This document shows positions 50,075 through 64,000 of a DNA stretch of 64,000 bases, piece after piece. Origin of the DNA: Gamsiella multidivaricata (lineage: Eukaryota; Mortierellomycota; Mortierellomycetes; Mortierellales; Mortierellaceae); contig NW_026251831.1 in assembly GCF_025024155.1 (NCBI RefSeq), positions 17,376 through 81,375 of the forward strand. Reading direction: 5' to 3'. The notes below the pieces were generated by a model. The model was not told the origin of the DNA and searched no databases. It saw only the letters and a list, made by a program, of their open reading frames with translations. The translations under genes were made by a program, and so were the position numbers. Each line of letters begins with the position of its first letter. The first letter of the stretch is position 1.

Positions 50075-53000
50075 ATTATTTTTTTTTTAGAACGGGGCGG
50101 CGAAAATTATTTCAGAAAATGGCACTAAAAAAGAAAAAGCGAGGTGGAGAAGTAAAAATATAAAGATGAGGTTGATGAGGTGGAGCGGGATAGGCTGTGG
50201 AGTTGCGATGTAAGGAAGTGTTGTAAGGGATGAGGATATAAGGATGAATCAAGAGAGAAGTGTAAAGATGAAAAAGAAGGATGATGACAATGGGCCAGAT
50301 GCGAATGCAGACACACAAACAAAAAAGGATGTGAGCTGAAAAGTGGAATCTCCTCTTCAAGGGAAAGGAAAGGAAAAGGATGGACTTTTAAAAAAAACAA
50401 TAAATTGGATATGAAAAACACATGTGCCCCGAATGGACTGAAATGGATCCTATCCAATACAGCCTTTTCTTCAACGGGGAGGAAAGCAGATCCTCTGCTG
50501 TCATCATGAAGGAATAACAGGCCTTTTGCGCTCTACCGTCCGTCGTCTTTGTTTGTCCCACAACCCCCAGCGGGTCCTCATTTTTTTTGTACTCTTTTTC
50601 CTGCATCCACAGCATGCGGTACTGCAGCGGTCGACTCTAGACCTCACCTTCAGCCTCAGCCCCGATGATCGACCCCAATTGCACCTAGAATTCTATGCAG
50701 TCCTTCTTGGGACTCATGTCCACCTTTTGCCCTGTAAATCGATAGTGCCTATAAATCGATACACTGATCCCTCTCATCCTTGGCATTGGCATATCACCAT
50801 GCTCTCTCTCTCCTAACGCATGGGCTGTTAATCTTTAGCTGGGAATAGTACAATAGAGAGATGGAGCCTGCCATTATGAACTATGGGCTGTAGTCCGCTC
50901 GTACAATGTTATTTTTCGACCCAGGTCGCTCCTGGGATCCCAGGTAGGTCGCTGAGTTGGAGCGTGGACCTACCACACATCGTGTGCGAAGGTTGGACCA
51001 AGGCCCCAACCAATGAAAAGGATAAATAAGACCTTAGTCTAATAAAAAGTGAACCTTTCTGGCAGTCGAAATTGCCAGAGGCGTATCAAGTAAATAAACA
51101 CGGATACTATTGATACATCCACCAACATCAAGACGTCAATTGTTTAATTGTGCTATCTCCTCCCCTTTCTGAGCAACTGAGGACCATCATCAAAATGGCT
51201 CCATGCGCAGTTGTCGTGTGTGTCTTTTCTTTTTTTTCTTTCAACCTGAGTAGACAGACACAACGAAAGAGCCTACAGCACCGAAACTTTGTGCAGTCGT
51301 TTTTCTGAACTTGATACACAGACACGTTGTACCTTGTGCTTTTTGGGCTGTTGCCATGCAGCAGCGCGTGTGTTTCTTATTTCATAAACAGGCAAGTGTG
51401 GGGAATCAAGAAAGAATAAGGACAGAGGCATGTTTCCGTTGGAAAATAGGGGGGCCATGCATTTCTTGAGGAATGTTATCTGGCGGAGGCAAAAATAAGA
51501 TCGTACAGGAGAGATAAGTCGACGCTATCGCAAAACGTGTCTCTCCCTCGGACTTCCTTCGTATTCCATTCCCATCTGCTTTGCACCCATTGGCTGAAAG
51601 GAATCAACAAGCAGCGTGTGCCCTTTGTGCCTTTGTTCCTGAATAATCATTTCGTGAGGTTCAGTAGCCGGTAAAACGCGCACCGAGGCTTTCTATAGTT
51701 TCCTATGCCCGCTTGCTCACTTCTCCGCCCCTTCATTGTTCTTGGAATTCCGGCGCGTCAGGACCCAGCAAGATCTTCGCCTCACCTGTGCGGGCCCAAA
51801 GTCGAGGAAAAAATCATAGCAATGGCAGCACAATGACGGCTTGTCCAACCAAATCTCCGTCGATACGAAGTTTCCTCGATAGGGATTCCCATCCTGCCCC
51901 ATATACACAACAAACCGGATTGGCCCTTTTGAATTGTTTTTTTTTGGCACCTCAACTTTGAGCGCATTTTTTTGCGACGGAAAAAAAGAAAACAGATCTT
52001 TAAACCATATACACTAGTTGAAAAAGAGGTGCATCAGGGCTCCAGCGCAGATCCTGACTGAGTGCATGTGTATACTTGTTTAACAACACTCCTTTGAAGA
52101 AAGGAGCACCAACCAAGGCGAATACAACATTAAACCCATTCCTCTCTCGGTCAGCTGGCACTTCCAACAGTAACACCACCAGCACCAGCAGTGCAGTTGC
52201 CAACTGAGCACTTGTCCTAATAACGACACGGCCCGTTTATTAACCGGCTACAAGCGATCATATGCCGTTTAAATCTGCTGGTCGTAGCTACCAAACGGTT
52301 CTCTTTGAAAACGAGGACAAGCCAGCCGTGCTGTTGGATTGGTCTGAAACAAAGAAGGTTGAATGCAACTTTGAGTGGACCAGTTGGATAACAAGAATGG
52401 ACCCGATCGGTCACAGTGTCAGAAGCTGAGGTAAAGAAAATAGTATATACGATATGGAGACATCAATTGCTCGTTGGCCCTCAAAGGAGGCAGCAACGAG
52501 CGTTCAATAGACAAAAGAGGTGTTTGAGACATGCAGTGCATACATCCTTCGTATCATTATTATGGATGCTATTATAATCAAATCACTTGAGCAGCATTGG
52601 AAGAGACGATCGCTCATTGACTGACTGTAAGTACTTTCTCCTTGGTCTTTTTTTTTTTTTTTTTTTGGAAAAAGAGGAATGTATGATTCAAATCAAACAG
52701 CCATGCAAGATCAGATCGAGCAAGCCTGCTGCACCAACATGATCACACTTGATCTTTCGCGGTTAACCAATTTATCCCTCATTGCTCTTTCTCCCGAACA
52801 GGAGAAAGGACTAGAGAAAAAAACTTGTCGCATGCCATGGTTATTTGATCCTCAATGGCAAAACAAACCAATGACAGGCAACAACGCGATTGCAAAGTTG
52901 GAAATCTCATATTTGCGGGTCGCAGGTCTTTTTATACATACAGTGCACGTCACCTAAAGCCAACACAAAAATTTAAAAAATTTTAGTCTTGGGGGAAACA

Positions 53001-53275
53001 CCAAGGATATTTTTTAGGAAGAAAAATTTCGAAAAAGACAACGCAAGTCAATAGATTTTGATTCTCTCGACAGAGCAGCGTTGTCCGCATGTCGAAAAGA
53101 CCAGTGGATCAAAAGTTGTAGGCATTCATCAACAAGGCCCTTTACTATGAGGGACGACAAAAAATTCAGCGTTCTGATTGGTCTGAAGACTGTGACTGCC
53201 GATTGTATGTTTCGATTGGTGGCAAAAACTTACTAGGGATAAACGGCACCGTAAAATGGGCTCCAAATCATGAAT
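50075..53275. other. 3.2-kb region, one doubtful minus-strand gene
   Basis: 50075-50500 is the promoter and leader of the tail-anchored gene. 50500-51500 shows no gene. 51520-52203 may hold a three-exon minus-strand gene (listed separately). 52650-52672 is a T tract. 52930-53275, downstream of the Fanzor reading frame, is AT-rich and is where the left end of the mobile element and any guide RNA would be expected. Confidence 0.4.
51525..52203 (-). CDS. possible three-exon secreted or ER protein, unknown
   Basis: Seen: an ATG at 52203 opens a signal-peptide-like segment (MATALLVLVVLLLEVPAD) and FNVVFALVGAPFFKGVLLNK. It can be joined in phase 0 to a second exon with NSKGPIRFVVYMGQDGNPY and FVSTEIWLDKPSLCCHCYDF, which ends at a GTGAGG donor near 51785. 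A third open stretch (KASVRVLPATEPHEMIIQEQ) then runs to a TAG near 51525. All junctions are by eye and no family is recognised, so this may be spurious or a decayed gene. Confidence 0.28.
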
Positions 53276-56200
53276 TTAAAGCGTCGTTATTGTTGATGTT
53301 GTTGTTTTGTCGACAAGCTTGGCCCTTTCATAGTCAAGAGGAGCGGGCCACTGCCCATTGCGGAGAAACTGCAACACAGCGTTGGACATATTCGTGGCAG
53401 CGTTGTGGTCCCGGTCGCGCTCCCACTTGCACTCGTCGCAGATTACCGACCGGCCCCGGACTCTCATCCGAAAGTGGCACGAACAGCAAAAAATCGACGT
53501 CCGGAACTCTGGGATCTTGACCAACTCGATCACCACTGGTGTCTTCTTGTTCCTTGCCAAGTCCTTAACGAGATCCCGAGTCTAGTAATGCCAGGAGAAG
53601 CCAAAATATTAGAATCATTCAATTGCCACTCGCTTCTCTCAAAAATGTCTTCAATGCTTGCCTGTCGTATTAAGTTCCTGGTAAACTTGCTGCCGCCGTG
53701 GCTCTGACCTTTCCAACCACGAAATCACCATCGCCTAGCCCGATCACGAGAGGCGACTGCAGAAAGGCATTACGCTTGTCGTCCGGCAGAGTATTCAAAT
53801 TCAGAAATCCTCGTTCGAAGAGAGATCTGGCGATCTTCTTCCGACGCCTCGTCAACGACTTGGAATTTAGGAGCGTTTTGCGCTCAATCTCCGGTCGCTT
53901 ATTTACCTCGTCCATGAGTCGCAGATATGGTGCCCAATCGTATTCTTTTACATTCGGCAATCCATCGAAAAATGCCATGGAACCCTTGATATCGTCATCA
54001 AGATGGTGGAGCACATCCGCGAGATCCTTGTCTGATAATTGCCGATCGGGGACATGCTTCCGCATCTGTAGGATCGCGGTTGTAGCCTTATCAAGGTCAT
54101 GCCGCAGGGCCTCTCTATAGTCGTACTTGTCTTGCTTGAACCTAGCGCCGCCATAAAAGGATCGAAGAGTCGACGCCTTTTTTGCTACATTGACAAGATG
54201 GACTTTGACAGCAGACTCGTAGTCCTGCATCGCCTTTTCCACGGCCTTGGTAATCGGCGTTATTGTATCTTGGCTGTTGCTGGTGATCCCTGAATCACCT
54301 TCCATAATAACATCCGAGTCACCAACAACCAACTTGGCTTCGACGGGCTTTTGTTGCACGAGCCTATCTTCGATTTCCGTTATCCCCGCATCGATCTTTA
54401 TACGGCTCTGTTGTTTGCGGTATCTCCGGTCGATATCATCCCGTGGGCCGCGGGGGATGTTCAGGTTGATATTTTCCTTTTCATAGCTAGAGTGAATAAG
54501 GGTAGCAGTGGCGGTACTGGCAATCCCGGGGTCTACACAAAGACTCCGTATTCCAACCTCGTCGTTTGTATTTCGGAGGAGACTGTCGACCTTCTCCTGG
54601 CTGTCAAATTTTTTGGATACATACGACCATCCTTGTATCATTGGCGCGGTTGACCAGGGGAAGACTGTGTTGGATGTTGGTACCGGGGGTGATATTGATG
54701 AAGCTGTTGTGGATTCAACGATTTCAGCGTCCGTCATCGTGGTTGGAGGCTTCGATCGCCTACCCACCGTCAATTTGTATGCCATGACTCGTAGGTCATG
54801 ACCGTTGGTCGAAAGGTTGCCAGTAAGTACATACTTTTGTCGCGGTTGCCCCGGTTCAGATTTGTCGATCTGCTCTTGGTATTTTTCCGGACGTTGAAGA
54901 CTTTGGCGAATAAGATCCTTGAATTCGAGTTTGCTGCTTGCGTACCGGGGATCTTTTGCCTCCATTTTCTCTAGAGCTGTTCTTGCTTCTTTGATTGTGC
55001 TCACGTCGTCGGACTTGAAGACAACCTTGGTCTTGAGGCACTTTTGCTGGAGTGCGGATGGTGGATTGGGAGATGAGGAGGAGGAGGCAGGGCCACAGCT
55101 GCCATTGGCCCACAGCATGTTGGCTCCTCTACGGTAGCTCGTATTCTTGCCATTAAGGAAAAGGAAGAAGGACAATCGACCGACCTCGTCCTGTGTGTTC
55201 TTTTCAGCAGATGTCTTGGATCCAAAGACATCATCAAGTATTTTTGCAAGCGAGCATTGCTTTTCCTGCTCGGCACTACTTAATCGGCGCATTTTTTTGG
55301 CGATTGGTGTGAGCCTGTTGTTCCTTTGGTCCATTCTGAAATCTTTCAAAAGGCAGCGGACAAGCTGACGCTCCGTGAAGGAAAAGAAACCGTCCTCATA
55401 ACCGATTTGTGGTAAGATTTTGATTTGAGCCTTCGCTGGCAAAATCAGATTCAGGATAAGATGAATACTGACACAATCGTGCTCCCGCGACCGCCCTGTC
55501 GTATCGTCGATAGAGTCCAAAATGGCCTTCCCGTTCTCAGAAGAGGCCCAGGAGGGATTGTGCATTAATGCCTATAATGAGTAGTCAGAGTAGTGAGGCC
55601 AGTGTCCGCGTGCATGATTGAAACGAGATGGCTCTTATTAAGATGACTTACCCGCTTCTTAAGTTCCAATGAAAACTTGTAGAGGTGGCCTCCTACCATA
55701 TCGGACAGTGTTCTCGCACACTGGCTCATGAAGGAGCCTTCACAGACGTCTCTATCCTTCAGTCGGAATGGTGGTGCCTGGCGTTGCGAGGTGATCTGTA
55801 AATACTCCTGAAAAATCTTGTCGGACGCCATTAATGCAGGTGAACTAGCCTTCTTGAGATCGGAATTGTCACTGTCCCATCTGATTAACCGATTCAAAAG
55901 CCGCTGAAAAAATGAATCTCGTTTACCCTTCAATAGGATATTGTTGAAGTGTTCCATTCTTTTGTCGCGATGCACTCGTCCTCGATCTCCGTCAATTGCT
56001 GGGAATGTTCCGAACGTTCTTGTTATGTAGAGATTGGTCACCAAAAGGCCCTCGCGTAGCAAATCAGTATGGACTCTTGCCATCGTCTGCATGGTCTCGA
56101 GGAGATGGTCCAATAAGAGGCTACGGTCCTGGTCATTCATGCAAGGGAATGACTCTTTGAGACTGTGAATAAGACACGACTCAATCCGGCCAGGCCTCAT

Positions 56201-58606
56201 TGCGCGCATTGGATGCAAAGATGCAACAGCGTCGACCATCAGGTTTGTTGGGTTGATCTTGCGGGGAACAGCGTTCTCGTTCAGTGGTACATCGGCATCA
56301 CGAGCCTCCCTGGAGCTCTTGGTATATGTAATCTTCTTGAATGCCCTTTTCTTGGGACGTTCTGCATCGATAGGCTGGTCCTCAGCTTGTTGATCCCCCT
56401 CGTAATCGCTTCCGCTACCAGAATTGTCGTCAGAGTTGTCGTCAGAGTTGTTGTCAGAGTTGTCGTCAGAGTTGTTGTCAGAGTTGTCTCAGACTCATTT
56501 CCGTTCATTGTATTCTCTTCAGCAGTTGTCTTCAGACTCATTTCCGTTCATTGTATTCTCTTCAGCTGAGACAGCAAGAGGAGCAAGGAGGTTCACCACT
56601 GCGGCATCATTCGAGATATCTGCATTGTCTGGGAATGTATCATGATCGTCGTCGTCGTCGTCGTGATCTATGAGCACACTAGCCGTGGATCCGGGCCGAC
56701 CGATGGTCCGATCTTTCACGCTTACAGGCTGCGTGTTTTTGTCCTGACTTGTGAAGGCTGACGTGAAAGCCCTCGGACGGTATTTGTGGCCAGTGGTGTA
56801 TCTTTGAAATCTGTTTTCCGCAGACGAAAGAGAGAGAGAGAGAGAGCAGCTAATCAGACATATGCCCTATTTTCAGTACGTACATAGCTTGGTTGCACAC
56901 ATTTTAACTCAAATAAACTTACTCATTGGCATGGTTCCTGACCGCAATGCTATCAACATTTCTTGTCACTGTTCCTGCAGAGAAAGCCATGCGAGCTACC
57001 AGTGGAGGCACATGAGGTGCCGTGGTCGACCCTGATTGTAGCTGTGGGAGCGCAAGCATCTCAACCACATTGTCGTTGCCTTCAGTCTCTGAGAGCTGGA
57101 CAGGAATGGAGTTAATTGGCGTGAGAGTCAAGGGTCTTTGGCTTGGTCGGGACTTCTATGACCAGTGGCTCCTACGGCTGTGTAATGGTACGAATTGGTG
57201 ATCAGCCAGTACCTGAAGCAAGTTGGATCGACATAGATATCTACATTTCATTCTTACCAGAGAGTCAATGCCTCGACTCGATATATGATCCTTCTTATGG
57301 ACTCATCAATCTCGTCATCTCCTTGAGTGTATTGGTCCAGGGGCGTCTCAACCAATTTCACAAAACTGTCCAATGACTTCTTGACGTCGTCGTGATGAAC
57401 ATTTTTCCTTCTGCAGAGTTCTTTGACATATCCGTCTACCGAACGGTCCTTGCTTTTCTTGCGAAACCAGTCTTTTCTGATCGCAGAGATATCTTTGATA
57501 GCCGTGCTGAATGACGTCCGACCCACACTTGGGTCATAGTCATTAAGGCTGACGACAGCGGCAGCGACCCACTCTTCCGGTGTTTTGAGTCCGCAGTGAC
57601 GAATAATATTCTCAATAGGGTAGCAGTAAAAGCGTATCCCTTTCGGATGTAAGCGGATGAGCCGTTCAGCGCCTACGAACATGAGATCACTGTCGGTTGA
57701 AACGACTACGAGACCTGGGTTCTCTCGTGCCTTCCTGCCGACACAGACGTCAAATTAACCAGCACACACATGCGCGTTCCAACCGTGAGACTCTTGTAGT
57801 TCATTGACGATGGCCCTTGTGGCTCGGGGATCCACACCACGGGTTCTAATCCAGCAGGGAAACAGGACTTTGCTGAGAAACGATTTAAATCGAGAGACCT
57901 GGCTGTTGGATAAGTTGGACTTTGCCTCCATTAGCGACAGTCGTGCCTCGGCGATTCCGAGATACTCGGACAACTTGAGGATTTGTTTTTTTGTGGCCCG
58001 CTGCCGTCTCTCATGGGCAAAGGTTTTCTAGGTTGTCGGTGGACCATCATAGTGAATGAAATCTTCTGACTTTTTGTAAAATCTGCCGTAGATCCTGTTC
58101 GGGACGTTGGCTACGAGGGGCCAAACAACATCGCGAGCGGAGTTCAGTTCGTGATATACATCCACCGGAGGATGTGAAGGAGGCGATAGTGCAGCAGAGG
58201 AAAGTGCTGGTGCCGAATAGCGCAGGCCCGATGACGATGATACCTGTTGAATAGTCGTTGAGTTGATCGAAGAAGCATTGCAAGCCAAAGACGAGTTCGG
58301 AGGAGCCGTAGACAGATTCAGTGCAGACAGGTCCGATGCGAGACCCTTGGTCGTTACCGGGGACGGCAAAGACCATGATTCTTGATCCCAGTGGGCAAGA
58401 CGAAGGACAGGACCAGGGATTCCAATGGAGACATCTTCCTTGGCCATATTTTTCAGTTGCTTGAGCAGTAACCGTCCCTCTGTGGTCTTGAATTTCATGT
58501 AAGAAACGGCAGATCCATCAATATCGCATGGACCTTCTTTCTGTGGATCAACAAGCTTGATGGCTTTGCAATCTTTAGCGAGTTCGAAAGCCTGAGTTAC
58601 ACCCAT
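53276..58606 (-). pseudogene. XPG/FEN1-like nuclease fused to Fanzor (TnpB-like) nuclease, broken
   Basis: Seen: five exons in phase (58606-57258, 57141-56923, 56810-55652, 55571-53709, 53581-53276), 1,632 codons. N-terminal part: MGVTQAFELAK, CDIDGSAVSY, HYDGPP and VVVSTDSDLMFVG with SLNDYDPSVG, the XPG-N and XPG-I order of FEN1 nucleases. An acidic linker of Asp-Asn-Ser repeats leads to a Fanzor part: INPT/LHPMRAMRPGR region, RuvC-I VGIRSLCVDPGIAS (Asp near 54531), LVIGLGDGDF, a TS-CC-C zinc ribbon (FRTSIFCCSCH, ICDEC) and RuvC-III DRDHNAATNM. Breaks: TAG at 58030-58028 (after YDGPPTT), TAA at 57757-57755, and a 42/43-bp duplication giving TGA at 56521. The frame holds otherwise. The intron at 53708-53582 has a weak donor and is the least sure junction. 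A separate Fanzor gene would lack a good ATG. Confidence 0.8.
56482..56566 (-). repeat. 42/43-bp tandem duplication interrupting the nuclease frame
   Basis: Copies at 56524-56566 (43 bp) and 56482-56523 (42 bp, one base fewer) are otherwise identical. The net change of 42 restores phase downstream, but the junction creates TGA at 56521-56519. Removing one unit would connect the acidic segment of the XPG side directly to the Asp-Asn-Ser linker of the Fanzor side. Confidence 0.9.
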
Positions 58607-59336
58607 CCTGGAGACAGATAAGTATCGTGATGAGGTAATGAGAACAAGTTTGAGTTAATACTTAGAATGAGGGTAGGAGGGAAACATGTCATTGTTCGCG
58701 GTGATCTAAAACTAAAAAAATTGCAACCTTACGTGCTTCCATTCAAGAACGCAAGTTTAATGAGGGAGATTCATCCACTCAAGGGCCTAGAAAGTAAGGA
58801 CAAGAAAAGGCTAAGAACAACAGTAATTGTGCCCATTGTGCATTGGGATAAAAAGAGCAAAAGGACGTTACAGGTCGGAACAGCGTCCGTGGCTCAAGCC
58901 CGGGGTGTGGCTCTTTCTTGGATTAATCGGATAGAGGATAAGGCCAGAGAGAGAAGAGAGAGAGAAGAGAGAGAGATAGTGTGTGTGTGTGTGTGTGTGT
59001 GTGGAGAAGGAAGAACAAACGTGGAAAGAAGGAAGAACAAACGTGGAAAGAAGGAGTCGAATAACGTTTAAATTTTAACGGCTGGGGGTTGCTCCATGTT
59101 AGGCTTTCCCACCCCTTTAATGTCGTTGACAAAAATTAAAATGATTGTGTATCCAAAGCCCGTCGCATCGAAGACCGCCTGTTGCACTTGGCGATGTTCT
59201 CTCGTGTGCCACTCTATGATCTTAACCAGTGAGGGTAGCCATCGTCCTTGACTCGGTCTATCCTGTTTTGAATCATTCGTGTCAACAAACACCGACACCC
59301 TGTATTTATCTTGACTTCGTTGTTATGTAAATGGGC
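58607..59336. other. spacer between transposase and XPG-Fanzor frame
   Basis: These 730 bases hold a GA/GT microsatellite (about 58945-59003) and a plus-strand frame, 58667-59071, whose first ~95 codons look protein-like (VIVRGDLKLKKLQPYVLPF) before running into the repeat. Without a recognised domain I do not call a gene. Confidence 0.35.
58945..59003. repeat. compound GA/GT microsatellite
   Basis: Interrupted AGAG units (about 58945-58978) are followed by a run of about eleven GT units (58980-59001). It lies inside the mobile element, between its two coding blocks. Confidence 0.85.
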
Positions 59337-61610
59337 TTATGATTCGAACATTTGATTTTCTGATATTCTACGGTGTGATTTGTACTGTTTCACTGCTCGC
59401 TCTGCAGCCTCCATTGGCAGTCCCTTCCTGTAAGTGTCCATATATCTAAATGCCTTCCAAGCATACCTTCGTATGGTTTCAATAGGCACCGAGTCCAGAG
59501 CCTCAGGGATGATTGACTGGAGACCTCGGAAGGAATAGTCGCAGTGCTTCCGGGTATAGCGCTTACTTACTCCCCAGTACATCTCTATGAAGTTGAGCTC
59601 ACAATGAAATTTGGGATAGAAGACAATACGCTGTCCTTCCTCCCTTGCAATCTCCTCCAGTATCGAGCCCTGAGCAACAAAATCGGGCTGCAGTTCTAGA
59701 ATTCGTTCTGCGCAACAGTCCACTCGATCAGGGTGTTTGTCGTCAGCCCTACATCTCGAGCATGTTCTAGGGAGTCCATCAATCCAGAGACCTCGGTCCT
59801 TGAGAACCTCTTTCATTCCCTTGGGGTTTCCTCTTAACGCCTCGTTCGCGTAATTATCTGGAAAGACCATGGTGTAGTGGGTTCCATCTACAATGGTGTC
59901 CCGCATGGCCGCTTGCTTTCCACCAGACGAAAGGTTCATCCTATTCACCACCAGTGCATCTTTGGCAACACAGTTGTGGTTTGATGAATTATCGAACGCC
60001 CAAAGTCCAATCAGATTCGGGTGGTTCCTCTTGTGTATAGTGATCGCTTTCTTGAACTGCCGAGCCATGCCTTCAGCGGTCCAGTAGCCATCGTGAATTT
60101 TCCCTGGGTTGATGATCTCTCGAGTACGTATCACCTCGCCATTGTCATCGATCGTCTTCAAAGGTCCCTCAAGTTCGGAAAGAAACTCACTGACCATGAT
60201 GGACCGACCATGACCTTTCTTGCGCAACGGAAGTTGACCATTTGGATGCCAAAGCATAGAATTTCCTTCGTTCGAGTAGAAGATGCTCTCATCGTGAGTG
60301 TAAAACACTATCGCCTGTTCGCCTGCAGCCTAGAGCAAAGAGAAGTAATTTAGCGGTACGAATTAAATATCCATGAGTTACCTCCTAATCGCAACAAGCA
60401 CTTACCAGAGTGGGCTCGATGATCTTTGTTTGATCGTTGGCGTCTACGGTTATCATCCTCTTCTCGTACTCCTCCATTCGTACAAGAAAAATCTCCCGAT
60501 ACTCTTTCACGTCAGGTCGCTCATGGCCATCGAAATATAGGCCCTTTTTTGCCTCTGAGTATATCCAGCCCAGCGCATGTAGCCACCGACCTGCTGTTGA
60601 CTCGCTGATTGAGAATTCGATGCCATTTGCTGGGAGGAAGACGTTATTGATGTGCCGCCGGAGTATCGATGGCGTGATAGTGTATTTATGGTTCAACAAT
60701 ATCCAGGTTCTCAACTCATTAAAGTTATCGCCTTCGGTTAGTTGGTTCCTGGTTTTGGCATGCTTCCCTCGACGCGACACAGTGATTTCCTCATTGTTCT
60801 CCCACTGAGTAGCCCATATCATGATCCTTCGTGAAAAGTGCACGCCTCTGCCAAAACCATTCGCCGTAACCAGAGCTGCCTTAGTCTTGCTCACTCCTGG
60901 GACCAAGCGGCGTAGGTACTGCTGGAGTGCTTGCAAATTAAAGGCCTCGTCACTGAGGGGCGGATATTTCTTGTACTTGTTACCCAAGTAACCTTGAATT
61001 TCCAATACCATCCCTGCATTGCGGCGCACATCTACATTCCCGAAAGGCGATATTACATATATGTTAGTATTAATATATTAAGAATTCATATTATAGGCAC
61101 ACAGTATCCAGTTATCATACCTGAAGGTTCTACTTCCTGGACAACTCTCTTCCGGCGAGGAGCTGTCAGTGTTGGCACAGTGAACCCAAATGTAGAGAGG
61201 GGAGGGGTGCTTACTGCTGCCCTTTTGAGGACCATCTTTCGGTGGTGCAAATTTTGCCGAGTGGTTCCATCGTAAGGCTTTGTCGTCTTCACTGAAGCAG
61301 CAGCCAATCGCATACTCGTAAGGAGTTCATCCCATTCCTCGTTATTCCTGAGAGTTCTTCTGACTGCCTGCCAATCCTCGTCATCAGTGTCGTCTTCAGC
61401 AGGTCCATCACTATCCGATTCCGCGAGAACAGCATTCCATTCCTCAATATCGCGACTTGACTCCTGTATCTCATAGCCCGCTTTCACAGGCACATAAATG
61501 ACGTTCTCCACCTGCAGTTCTTGGTAGACTGGGTCAAGAATAGGCGGGGGTGGTTTGGGTTTTTGCGCTATTCTTCTTAAATGCTACGTGAGTTTCTTCA
61601 CTCGAGGCAT
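59337..61610 (-). pseudogene. IS630/Tc1/mariner-type DDE transposase, one in-frame stop
   Basis: Seen: three exons in phase (61610-61121, 61031-60406, 60329-59337), 703 codons. The first ATG (MPRVKKLT) is followed by TAG at codon 9 (61586-61584), after which the frame is open to the end. The N-terminal ~150 residues are acidic. The middle carries a helix-turn-helix-like region (ITPSILRRHINNVFLPANG, ISESTAGRWLHALGW). The catalytic core shows the first Asp in YTHDESIFYSNEG, the second in LWAFDNSSNHNC and the Glu in YPKFHCELNFIEMYWG, the spacing and context of DDE/D Tc1-mariner relatives. Family knowledge: such enzymes cut at terminal repeats and insert at TA. Inference: catalytic residues are kept but the N-terminal stop probably disables this copy, unless a downstream start is used. 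Confidence 0.85.
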
Positions 61611-62541
61611 TCTAAACTTAGAGGAAAGGAATGCTGACGACGATGGAGTGATGATGAGAATCACGGAAAGGGTCGGTTGAATGGAAAATACACATGGACG
61701 CTCCAACATTAGGACTAAACGTCAATGGTGACTGCTGCGACCCAATTATTTGACAAAATCCAAAAAGTGTTGTCTTCAGATGAAGTGCACCATAGGGATA
61801 TAGGGTACCCTTAATTTAGCTTGCTTTATTTCAGTTCTGAGTGTGAGAGAATTGGCCCTTCTCTTTCACAGCCTATCAATCAAGCCAACATGGTACATAC
61901 ATCGCCGGGCTTCAATCCATGAGCGCAGCATCATCGCATCCATCGCTATCCATCGATTGATCGATCTCGACAACTGCGACAGTCAGCATATTACCATCCA
62001 GCGTCATGACTTAGTGAAGAAGCGAGGAATTCGGCAAATTCAATAGTCATCATCACTCCTCAACTGCATCCACTCGCTTTGCTTAGCCGATTCACGAGAA
62101 AGACAGCCAAAGCAAAAGACGTGGTGAACCGCCGATCATCCACTCAGCGTCTACGTCTATTTTAACTGAAGCTATATTCGAGTCGCATCAGGACAGTTGA
62201 TGATTCTCTGGACGTCCAACACTTCACAGCACCGTTACACCCTTCGCTTTTGCACGTTTTCAGGATGGTCAAGCTGATTCAGCACTCGCGGTACCAGGAG
62301 TCACTCAACAGGATAGGAGGGCGAATACAATACAGTCTGATGTCCTCTTAATCTGGCGACCGAGAGGATCAGGGTCGGGATTAGAACCGGAGTCGTAGTC
62401 AGGATCAGAATCTAGGACTCAGGAAAAGGACACCCACCATCTTCTTCCTTGTATACTCCAGGAAACGGATGGTTCGGAGGCGGCTAATTGAGTTGCGGTC
62501 TTAATAACTTCGTCTTATTTTGCACTCTCTATATCAATTAG
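61611..62541 (+). other. flank of the mobile element and uL5 promoter
   Basis: No gene is seen in these 931 bases. The right end of the mobile element should lie in the first few hundred, but no inverted repeat was found. A CT-rich tract before ATG-GT at 62265 is a plausible uL5 start exon. A second ATG-GT is at 62471. Confidence 0.4.
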
Positions 62542-63193
62542 TCCGCTGAAGACCAGACTCAGAAGAACGTTATGCGCGAGTTGCGCCTCGAGAAGCTCGT
62601 TCTCAACATTTGCGTCGGCGAGTCCGGAGACAGACTCACCCGTGCCGCCAAGGTTCTGGAGCAGTTGACCGGTCAGACCCCCGTCTACTCCAAGGCCCGT
62701 TACACCGTCCGTACCTTCGGTATCCGTCGTAACGAGAAGATCGCCGTCCACGTCACCGTCCGTGGCCCCAAGGCCGAGGAGATCTTGGAGCGTGGCCTCA
62801 AGGTCAAGGAGTACGAATTGAAGAAGTCGAACTTCTCCGAGACCGGCAACTTCGGTTTCGGTATCCAGGAGCATATCGATTTGGGCATCAAGTACGATCC
62901 CTCGATCGGTATTTACGGTATGGACTTCTTCGTCTGCATGAACCGCCCCGGTAACCGCATCACCAAGCGTCGCCGTGCCGTTGCCAAGGTTGGCCCCAAG
63001 CACCGTGTGCACAAGGAGGAGACCATGAACTGGTTCAAGCAGCGTTACGACGGGTAAGACACACAATTAACCGTCATGGACATGGACGCTGTCTTTTGTG
63101 ATTGCTTTCTGAGATGAAAGTATTGATGTTGACCATGCTTGTTTCTTTTTTTACTTTCTACGTCTCAATAGTATCCTGACCAACCGCAAGTAA
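62542..63193 (+). CDS. RPL11: 60S ribosomal protein uL5 (RPL11)
   Basis: Seen: exons 62542-63053 and 63172-63193 join in phase. The product matches uL5 over its length: [79 protein letters not shown] and the end YDGILTNRK. Codons are strongly biased to C-ending forms as in glutamine synthetase. Family knowledge: uL5 binds 5S rRNA with uL18 in the central protuberance of the large subunit. The acceptor at 62540-62541 leads into Ser-Ala-Glu-Asp, so the initiator Met is on an upstream ATG-only or very short exon. Candidates are ATG-GT at 62265 and at 62471. The last exon codes for only six complete residues. Confidence 0.95.
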
Positions 63194-64000
63194 ACGGTTG
63201 CTACGGGATAGTGGACATTGTATCTTGAATAAATGCTTGAAATCCTCACTGATAAGCGAGCGTACAAATCAAAAACGAGCATTGTCTCAATTCGGATCAA
63301 CTCGATGGATGTTCATGGATATGTGTGTCAATGGTTATGTTGACAAGAAACAGTTTTCAGGACAGGACGCAGACAGAAAAAAAAAAAAAAAAAGAGCGGA
63401 CATTGGTTATGAATGACACACGGGATCTGGCTTATCCACAGTTGAACATAACGGATGACCCATCGCCATTTGACGAGATATCGAGGACTTTTTTTTTTTT
63501 TTTTTTTCGTACGGATCAAGGGCAAGGAAGCAGCAGATAATACCGCAGGAACTGAAGATTATTTTCTAGCCGCTATCGGTTGTAAGAGGAACAGGAATTG
63601 AACGTCTTGCAAAATGAAAAAGGAAGAGAACTTGAAAAGAAAGGCTGCCAAGAAGGAAGGAATCATTGAACAACAAACGAGAGCATCTAATTTCTATCCT
63701 TAAATCCTGGAAATGAATAACCTGGCAACTCGGCTATCTTGGCAAATGGTCATTTTGGGTCGCCTTGCATTTGTATCTTCATTTTTCTCCGCACTTCTGT
63801 ACGCCGAAGGAAGCTTTATTTAGTCAGTAGCTCTGACATCGCCCTCCTTCCTCACGTCAGTCGTAGCATCAGCACCCAGCAGCAGCGTCAGAACCGGCGT
63901 TTCTTACACACTTCTTTTACTTCATAACTCGTGGAATGTAACCGAGACCCTGAACCAGATTGCCCTAGGCTCGAATTTCCTCATCGCAGTCGACGGACAA
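63194..64000. other. 3' flank, no gene seen
   Basis: 807 bases with A and T tracts (near 63379 and 63490) and no frame that looks like a protein. Any gene here would extend beyond the window. Confidence 0.45.

Follow-up and report, generated by a model that had tools for sequence, protein, structure and literature searches.

Does a fungal transposon carry one protein that combines an XPG/FEN1-type nuclease with a Fanzor, the eukaryotic counterpart of TnpB? The question arises from a stretch of 64,000 nucleotides of Gamsiella multidivaricata DNA (contig NW_026251831.1; hereafter the window), which is the end of contig C28 in the analysed 37.5-Mb, 180-contig assembly. A gene on its reverse strand, at positions 53276 to 58606, holds both halves inside a Tc1/mariner-like element. 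The joined frame, its splice phase followed on paper, the homologues, the predicted fold of the N-terminal half and the genome-wide linkage of the two parts make the fusion architecture as such, XPG and Fanzor in one protein, very probable. The whole explanation, a decayed Tc1/mariner-like transposon whose cargo is one protein (XPG-type 5' nuclease, flexible linker, Fanzor) that steers break repair, is held with slightly better than even confidence, its repair steps being put forward conditionally.

Organisation of the fusion gene

The gene was delimited from its frame, its copies and its homologues, and has the following parts.

53276..58606, reverse strand: XPG-Fanzor fusion gene, a pseudogene in the window copy
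57258..58606, reverse strand: exon 1, XPG/FEN1-type nuclease domain (fold of homologue P0004), with in-frame stops at 58030-58028 and 57757-57755
57178..57257, reverse strand: intron 1, 80 bp, GT-AG; its site agrees with P0013 and with the common end of nine short relatives
56923..57177, reverse strand: exon 2, XPG tail and linker, with an in-frame stop at 57158-57156
56811..56922, reverse strand: intron 2, 112 bp, GT-AG
55652..56810, reverse strand: exon 3, conserved linker block, acidic Asp-Asn-Ser linker and N-terminal Fanzor part
56482..56566, reverse strand: frameshifting tandem duplication of 43/42 bp (56566-56524 and 56523-56482), in the window copy only
55572..55651, reverse strand: intron 3, 80 bp, GT-AG
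53662..55571, reverse strand: exon 4, central Fanzor part with the RuvC-I motif and a frameshift near 53722
53582..53661, reverse strand: intron 4, 80 bp, GC-AG, the same in all four covering copies and in agreement with the P0001 and P0002 protein sequences
53276..53581, reverse strand: exon 5, TNB zinc-ribbon (PF07282) and RuvC-III part, with the stop codon at 53276-53278

The XPG-type and Fanzor-type halves share one spliced frame whose phase is kept through all four introns. A preliminary description of the locus, made from the letters alone, had proposed one frame running through two introns between the halves; the phase is indeed kept there, but the frame is not open, being interrupted by three in-frame stops. 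The first intron models at the XPG/linker junction were replaced by the single 80-bp intron after comparison with P0013. The proposed start at the ATG of position 58606 matches the beginning of P0002, a relative of 1705 amino acids (aa) without stops. The duplication was rightly taken as secondary, because none of the three other copies spanning this place (C134, C170 and C8) has it. It is not the only offset, as had been stated, since a one-base frameshift near 53722 also separates the window from C134, C8 and C126, all the other copies covering that place.

Three stops, the duplication and the frameshift make the window copy a pseudogene. The comparison took in six copies, some only partial (window, C134, C170, C8, C126 and C164). 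All are broken or truncated, with damage that differs between copies. C134 carries the same three stops of exons 1 and 2, yet reads straight through the linker; exons 1 and 2 of C170 have no stop, and a single one is found in its retained stretch, which ends near 55410. The differing damage, together with the open linker of C134 and the open exons of C170, indicates that the joined frame was most likely present before the copies decayed.

Relatives with both halves in one chain

Protein searches were carried out with the whole product and with P0001, each limited to about 8000 scored candidates, and the number of fused proteins found is a lower bound. The whole product retrieved P0001 of Entomortierella parvispora, a single chain of 1506 aa without stops that is 47% identical to the window product over 59% of the query. 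P0002, from the same species and named in UniRef after its XPG-I domain, was found with P0001 as query. Both halves align in the two proteins; P0002 begins like the window gene and the first XPG segment is missing from P0001. A search with the XPG core gave 13 proteins. The nearest relatives of the gene come from Mortierellaceae fungi, which points to a host of that family. P0013 (Linnemannia zychae) and P0014 (E. lignicola, also without the first XPG segment) are partial models that extend from the XPG part through the linker into the Fanzor part; P0013 is off the common frame for part of the linker. P0015 (Lunasporangiospora selenospora) reaches the linker, while P0012 (Gryganskiella cystojenkinii) stops within XPG. 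The short predictions P0003 to P0011 end, nine out of nine, at one alignment column that corresponds to the splice donor of the window gene. The XPG-half profile scores E 9e-232 on the open frame of C170; this value, the TNB match of the window copy (E 2.7e-10) and the identity to P0001 speak against a chance resemblance.

The search for single-chain homologues suggested in the preliminary description has therefore yielded two proteins without stops and two partial models carrying both parts. Relatives that always encode the two parts as separate genes, named there as the opposite outcome, were not what was found: one-chain models exist and the order XPG-then-Fanzor recurs at 63 of 102 XPG-like loci. 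The idea of a single element protein is supported by the gene models P0001 and P0002, though the window copy itself is broken.

It had also been claimed that no well-placed ATG lies between the halves. In-frame Met codons do exist there, which makes that claim too strong. In the alignment of the linker (C170, C134, P0001, P0002, P0013, P0014 and P0015) no Met column is common to all seven rows between the halves, and one column of the acidic linker has Met in five of them. In six rows, P0013 being the exception, that column is preceded by a block with KNT and TIGR motifs, which argues that the coding frame continues across the linker and that this Met does not account for the data as the beginning of a separate Fanzor.

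The XPG half

The predicted fold of homologue P0004 matches EXO1 and FEN1 and is complete, corresponding to the whole-domain fold of the FEN1/EXO1/XPG superfamily. Sequence comparison is less telling: the window pieces have no significant match to Pfam XPG_I, five of 15 relatives match it below the cut-off (best E 0.021), and no solved structure is matched significantly by the sequence of the XPG half. The XPG_I cut-off is passed by more distant relatives from this genome.

All 15 rows keep the acidic residues of the TDSD and ND motifs unchanged, and each of the 13 rows that cover the ID and YD/FD motifs has their Asp; these residues presumably bind metal. At a further position all 15 rows have Gln where the distant L051 has Glu, which leaves XPG catalysis in the window subfamily uncertain. 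Gln is also found in four copies of a second family (L047, L050, L052 and L054), and Glu in four more distant loci, L046 and L048 (both by eye), L049 and L051.

Two of these distant members with Glu, L051:1120-2079 and L049:1450-2337, are candidates for a catalytically complete form.

The Fanzor half and its 3' region

The TNB zinc-ribbon of the window copy matches PF07282 with E 2.7e-10 and 40.7 bits against a cut-off of 26.3, and those of P0001 and P0002 score 30.1 and 28.1 bits. The presumed active-site codons and the expected place of a guide RNA are given below.

54531..54533, reverse strand: presumed RuvC-I Asp codon (VDPG), its role assumed from TnpB/Fanzor families
53507..53509, reverse strand: presumed RuvC-II Glu codon (PEFRTS), role putative
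53408..53410, reverse strand: presumed RuvC-III Asp codon (RDRDHN), role putative
52941..53275, reverse strand: 3' region, expected place of a guide-RNA scaffold, with no structural signal above shuffles

The order of motifs, D ... [TS][TS]xx-C4 zinc finger ... RD, is the conserved one given by Bao and Jurka (2013; PMC3627910), with 3 residues between the last Cys and RD against 5-50 in the spacing published there. Fanzor has been described as a programmable RNA-guided endonuclease (PMC10432273), and the Fanzor half is probably an RNA-guided cutter. According to PMC11423790, most Fz1 proteins have 600-700 aa and a RuvC insertion is reported for PpFz1.

Association of the two halves across the genome

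Three query proteins defined 102 merged XPG-like loci, and PF07282 at E up to 0.01 gave 121 TNB places (120 after merging), 17 of the 121 lying under the curated cut-off by hand count. At 63 of the 102 XPG loci a same-strand TNB match lies downstream at a distance of up to 6 kb, the median gap being 2863 bp. It lies upstream at three and on the opposite strand at six. In 200 trials of random placement such loci numbered 1.07 on average and never more than 4; this control places loci uniformly and repeat clustering is not part of its model. Viewed from the other side, XPG is found upstream at 62 of the 120 TNB loci. Four XPG loci that have no downstream TNB match (C1:1021816, C113, C46 and C39) adjoin a match to the Fanzor half. 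Nine places exceed the Pfam XPG_I cut-off: a TNB match over its own cut-off follows each of the five weaker ones but none of the four strong, host-like ones.

In the second (L047 with L056) and third (L057) families, candidate introns can connect the XPG frame in phase with the one that follows. Enumeration gave 6 and 12 frame-keeping candidates, from which the preferred introns, both of 120 bp, were picked by eye, and the predicted joining is only supportive. XPG halves of the second family show dN/dS of 0.26 to 0.53 (ten pairs of five copies, not independent). A profile comparison of Fanzor halves between the first and second families gave E 0.11 with the RuvC-I region alone aligned, and two Fanzor pieces of the second family had no Pfam match; its Fanzor identity thus rests on the motif and on the TNB match just beyond L056. 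XPG identity between families is as low as 25-30% and the transposase of the window was not found beside these other families, so that the XPG part seems tied to Fanzor rather than to a single transposon type. Together, the stop-free relatives and the dozens of comparable gene pairs point to a genuine arrangement that is widespread in fungi.

The genome has more than 100 Fanzor-type zinc-finger matches, as counted by the 121 PF07282 places. For species in a table of PMC3627910, between 1 and 13 Fanzor families each are given, a count of families and not of copies. A group of TNB matches with an identical score of 47.2 bits (C105, C33, C62, C88, C93, C121, C131, C140 and C12) each contain one TAG in the frame of the match; they may belong to a family that was amplified recently and has either an intron or a fixed stop.

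Proposed function and alternative explanations

Bacterial TnpB helps to retain its own element at the donor site via recombination. In the fungal element, the Fanzor with a transposon-derived guide RNA would cut the empty donor site or allele, and the tethered 5' nuclease would resect the 5' ends or clear flaps. Repair would then be biased to recombination with a copy that still holds the element, which would be kept or copied. Since the pair is met again in families in which the search did not find this transposase, the nuclease domain probably serves the Fanzor and not the transposase. That guided breaks combined with flap or end processing could aid homing or repair is plausible from the predicted fold and from man-made exonuclease-Cas9 fusions, which, human EXO1 included, raise homology-directed repair in the reports covered (PMC11107001, PMC9450370). 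This repair mechanism is held tentatively, at somewhat less than an even chance. More doubtful still is its extension to the Mortierellaceae as a large and old lineage of natural "exonuclease editors", in which one protein would both cut under guidance and commit the break to recombination, thereby keeping or copying the transposon.

Several observations weigh against the proposed function or the fusion beneath it. XPG was not detected at 58 of the 120 TNB loci, and 39 of the 102 XPG loci have no downstream TNB match. All six compared copies are damaged, the fused relatives are known as predicted gene models, and both P0001 and P0002 come from one species. The XPG half has, by its Gln, less than the full acidic metal-binding set. 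In the Fanzor half, the D to TS spacing of 327 (P0001) and 338 (P0002) residues falls outside the published D-X(125,275)-[TS] (PMC3627910), and no sequence match to solved Fanzors was obtained. The 337-nt 3' region gave no guide-RNA signal, its fold being no better than that of shuffles (z -1.35, 12 of 100 equally good), and no Rfam match at gathering scores.

Part of this evidence could be accommodated by two separate genes, an XPG-like one with a Fanzor directly after it, merged by splicing on paper and by gene predictors. Such a reading fits a joined chain known from gene models and not from transcripts, the Met found in five of seven linker rows, the short models P0012 and P0015, the departure of P0013 from the common frame and the TNB loci without XPG. 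It is improbable, given that C134, C170, P0001, P0002 and P0014 stay in frame over the junction, that the block upstream of the linker Met is common to six of seven rows, that P0003 to P0011 all end at the splice donor column, and that frame-keeping introns, with several candidates each, can join the halves in two other families. A chance alignment or over-read motif with no real XPG domain would account for the weak Pfam and sequence searches (no significant Pfam domain in the window pieces, XPG_I matches in only five of 15 relatives, best E 0.021, and no solved structure matched by sequence); it is contradicted by the fold search, which settled for XPG, and its probability is close to nil.

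Other alternatives accept the fusion and differ on what the XPG domain does. A Gln-type domain that is no longer catalytic, its role for the Fanzor limited to binding DNA structures or tethering, would explain the Gln of all 15 rows and of the four copies of the second family. The invariant TDSD and ND residues, together with the Asp in the ID and YD/FD motifs, whose roles are presumed, stand against it, as do the complete fold and the Glu of the four more distant loci, and it is rated as unlikely, if with roughly one chance in a handful. Slightly less likely again is maturation of the guide RNA, in which the domain would trim the 5' end of the guide-carrying transcript with no action on the DNA break. 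In its favour, enzymes with FEN1-family folds work on 5' ends and on branched nucleic acids, the module accompanies Fanzor in different element types, and L051 weakly matches both XRN_N, a 5'-3' RNA exonuclease family, and XPG_I, each below cut-off. Against maturation, no guide RNA was located in the 3' region and the whole-domain match is to the DNA nucleases EXO1 and FEN1, though the fold does not decide the substrate.

The element and its copies

The limits of the transposon were set from copy edges, TA flanks and imperfect 24-bp terminal inverted repeats (TIRs).

52941..61792, reverse strand: whole Tc1/mariner-like transposon, 8852 bp
61769..61792, reverse strand: left TIR, with TA at 61793-61794
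52941..52964, reverse strand: right TIR, with TA at 52939-52940
60385..61077, reverse strand: N-terminal part of the transposase, helix-turn-helix (sub-threshold match to Pfam HTH_33)
59337..60329, reverse strand: DDE_3-like C-terminal part of the transposase (sub-threshold Pfam match)

The TIRs match at 18 of 24 positions and TA is found on both sides of the element; these flanks suit a Tc1/mariner-like transposon. The right edge at 52941 is common to the window, C134 and C43 (end of copy homology), and the left edge at 61792 to the window and C170, with C8 and C164 beginning 28 and 52 bases further inside. The transposase precedes the fusion gene on the same strand. Its DDE_3 match reaches 18.6 bits against a cut-off of 28.6, HTH_33 being likewise sub-threshold. 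It is present in the five larger copies of the element (C28, C134, C8, C170 and C164), and the genome scan gave only two weak matches elsewhere. As to viral spread, no relative was found in three scans of viral contigs.

C134 shares about 99% of the left flank of the window (61793-64000), past the element edge to the contig end, while the two copies have unrelated sequence beyond the right edge; this may reflect a segmental duplication, a nested insertion or a join made in assembly. C8 and C170 have about 530-540 extra bases between the transposase and the fusion gene, at window positions 59123-59128, with a 6-bp alignment overlap such as a nested insertion would leave. In C8 the XPG half is missing (window 56846-58954) through a deletion that joins two TC-repeat tracts.

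Comparison with known systems

If true, the covalent tie between a guided nuclease and an end-processing nuclease would be a natural way to steer the repair of guided breaks, and it would bear directly on the role of Fanzors for their transposons in eukaryotes. Should the XPG part matter for retention, the Fanzor would act through DNA repair choice. The families recurring in one genome offer many natural variants of the linker and, with E or Q, of the XPG active site, and stop-free models in the databases are available as starting material.

No earlier description of an XPG-Fanzor fusion was found in searches that covered open-licence PMC literature, the survey of Jiang et al. 2023 being outside coverage; this agrees with the preliminary description, which knew of none. 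Among the FEN1/EXO1/XPG/Rad2 5' nucleases, the domain stands apart by the low identity of the fold-match rows (13-19%), by Gln in place of one usual Glu in the window subfamily and by its location in a transposon protein. Fanzor1 in Tc1/mariner elements, as presented in PMC3627910, likewise comes with TA flanks, TIRs, a transposase and a RuvC/TNB protein of the same motif order. The window protein differs in its fused N-terminal XPG nuclease, in its size of about 1500-1700 aa where most Fz1 have 600-700 (PMC11423790), and in its longer D to TS spacing (327-338 residues against 125-275). The nearest recorded case met in the literature covered is the mariner element PGv-1 (PMC3627910), where a second nuclease also travels with Fanzor1; it is a separate GIY-YIG endonuclease there, in contrast to the single chain with an XPG-type fold here. 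The Cas9-exonuclease fusions (PMC9450370, PMC11107001) likewise join a guided nuclease covalently to a nuclease that processes DNA ends, which in one case is human EXO1. They are man-made, use Cas9 instead of Fanzor and had their effect on repair measured, whereas the window fusion is known from sequence. If the proposed function is true, the dozens of diverged fungal loci would be evolved counterparts of the engineered EXO1-Cas9.

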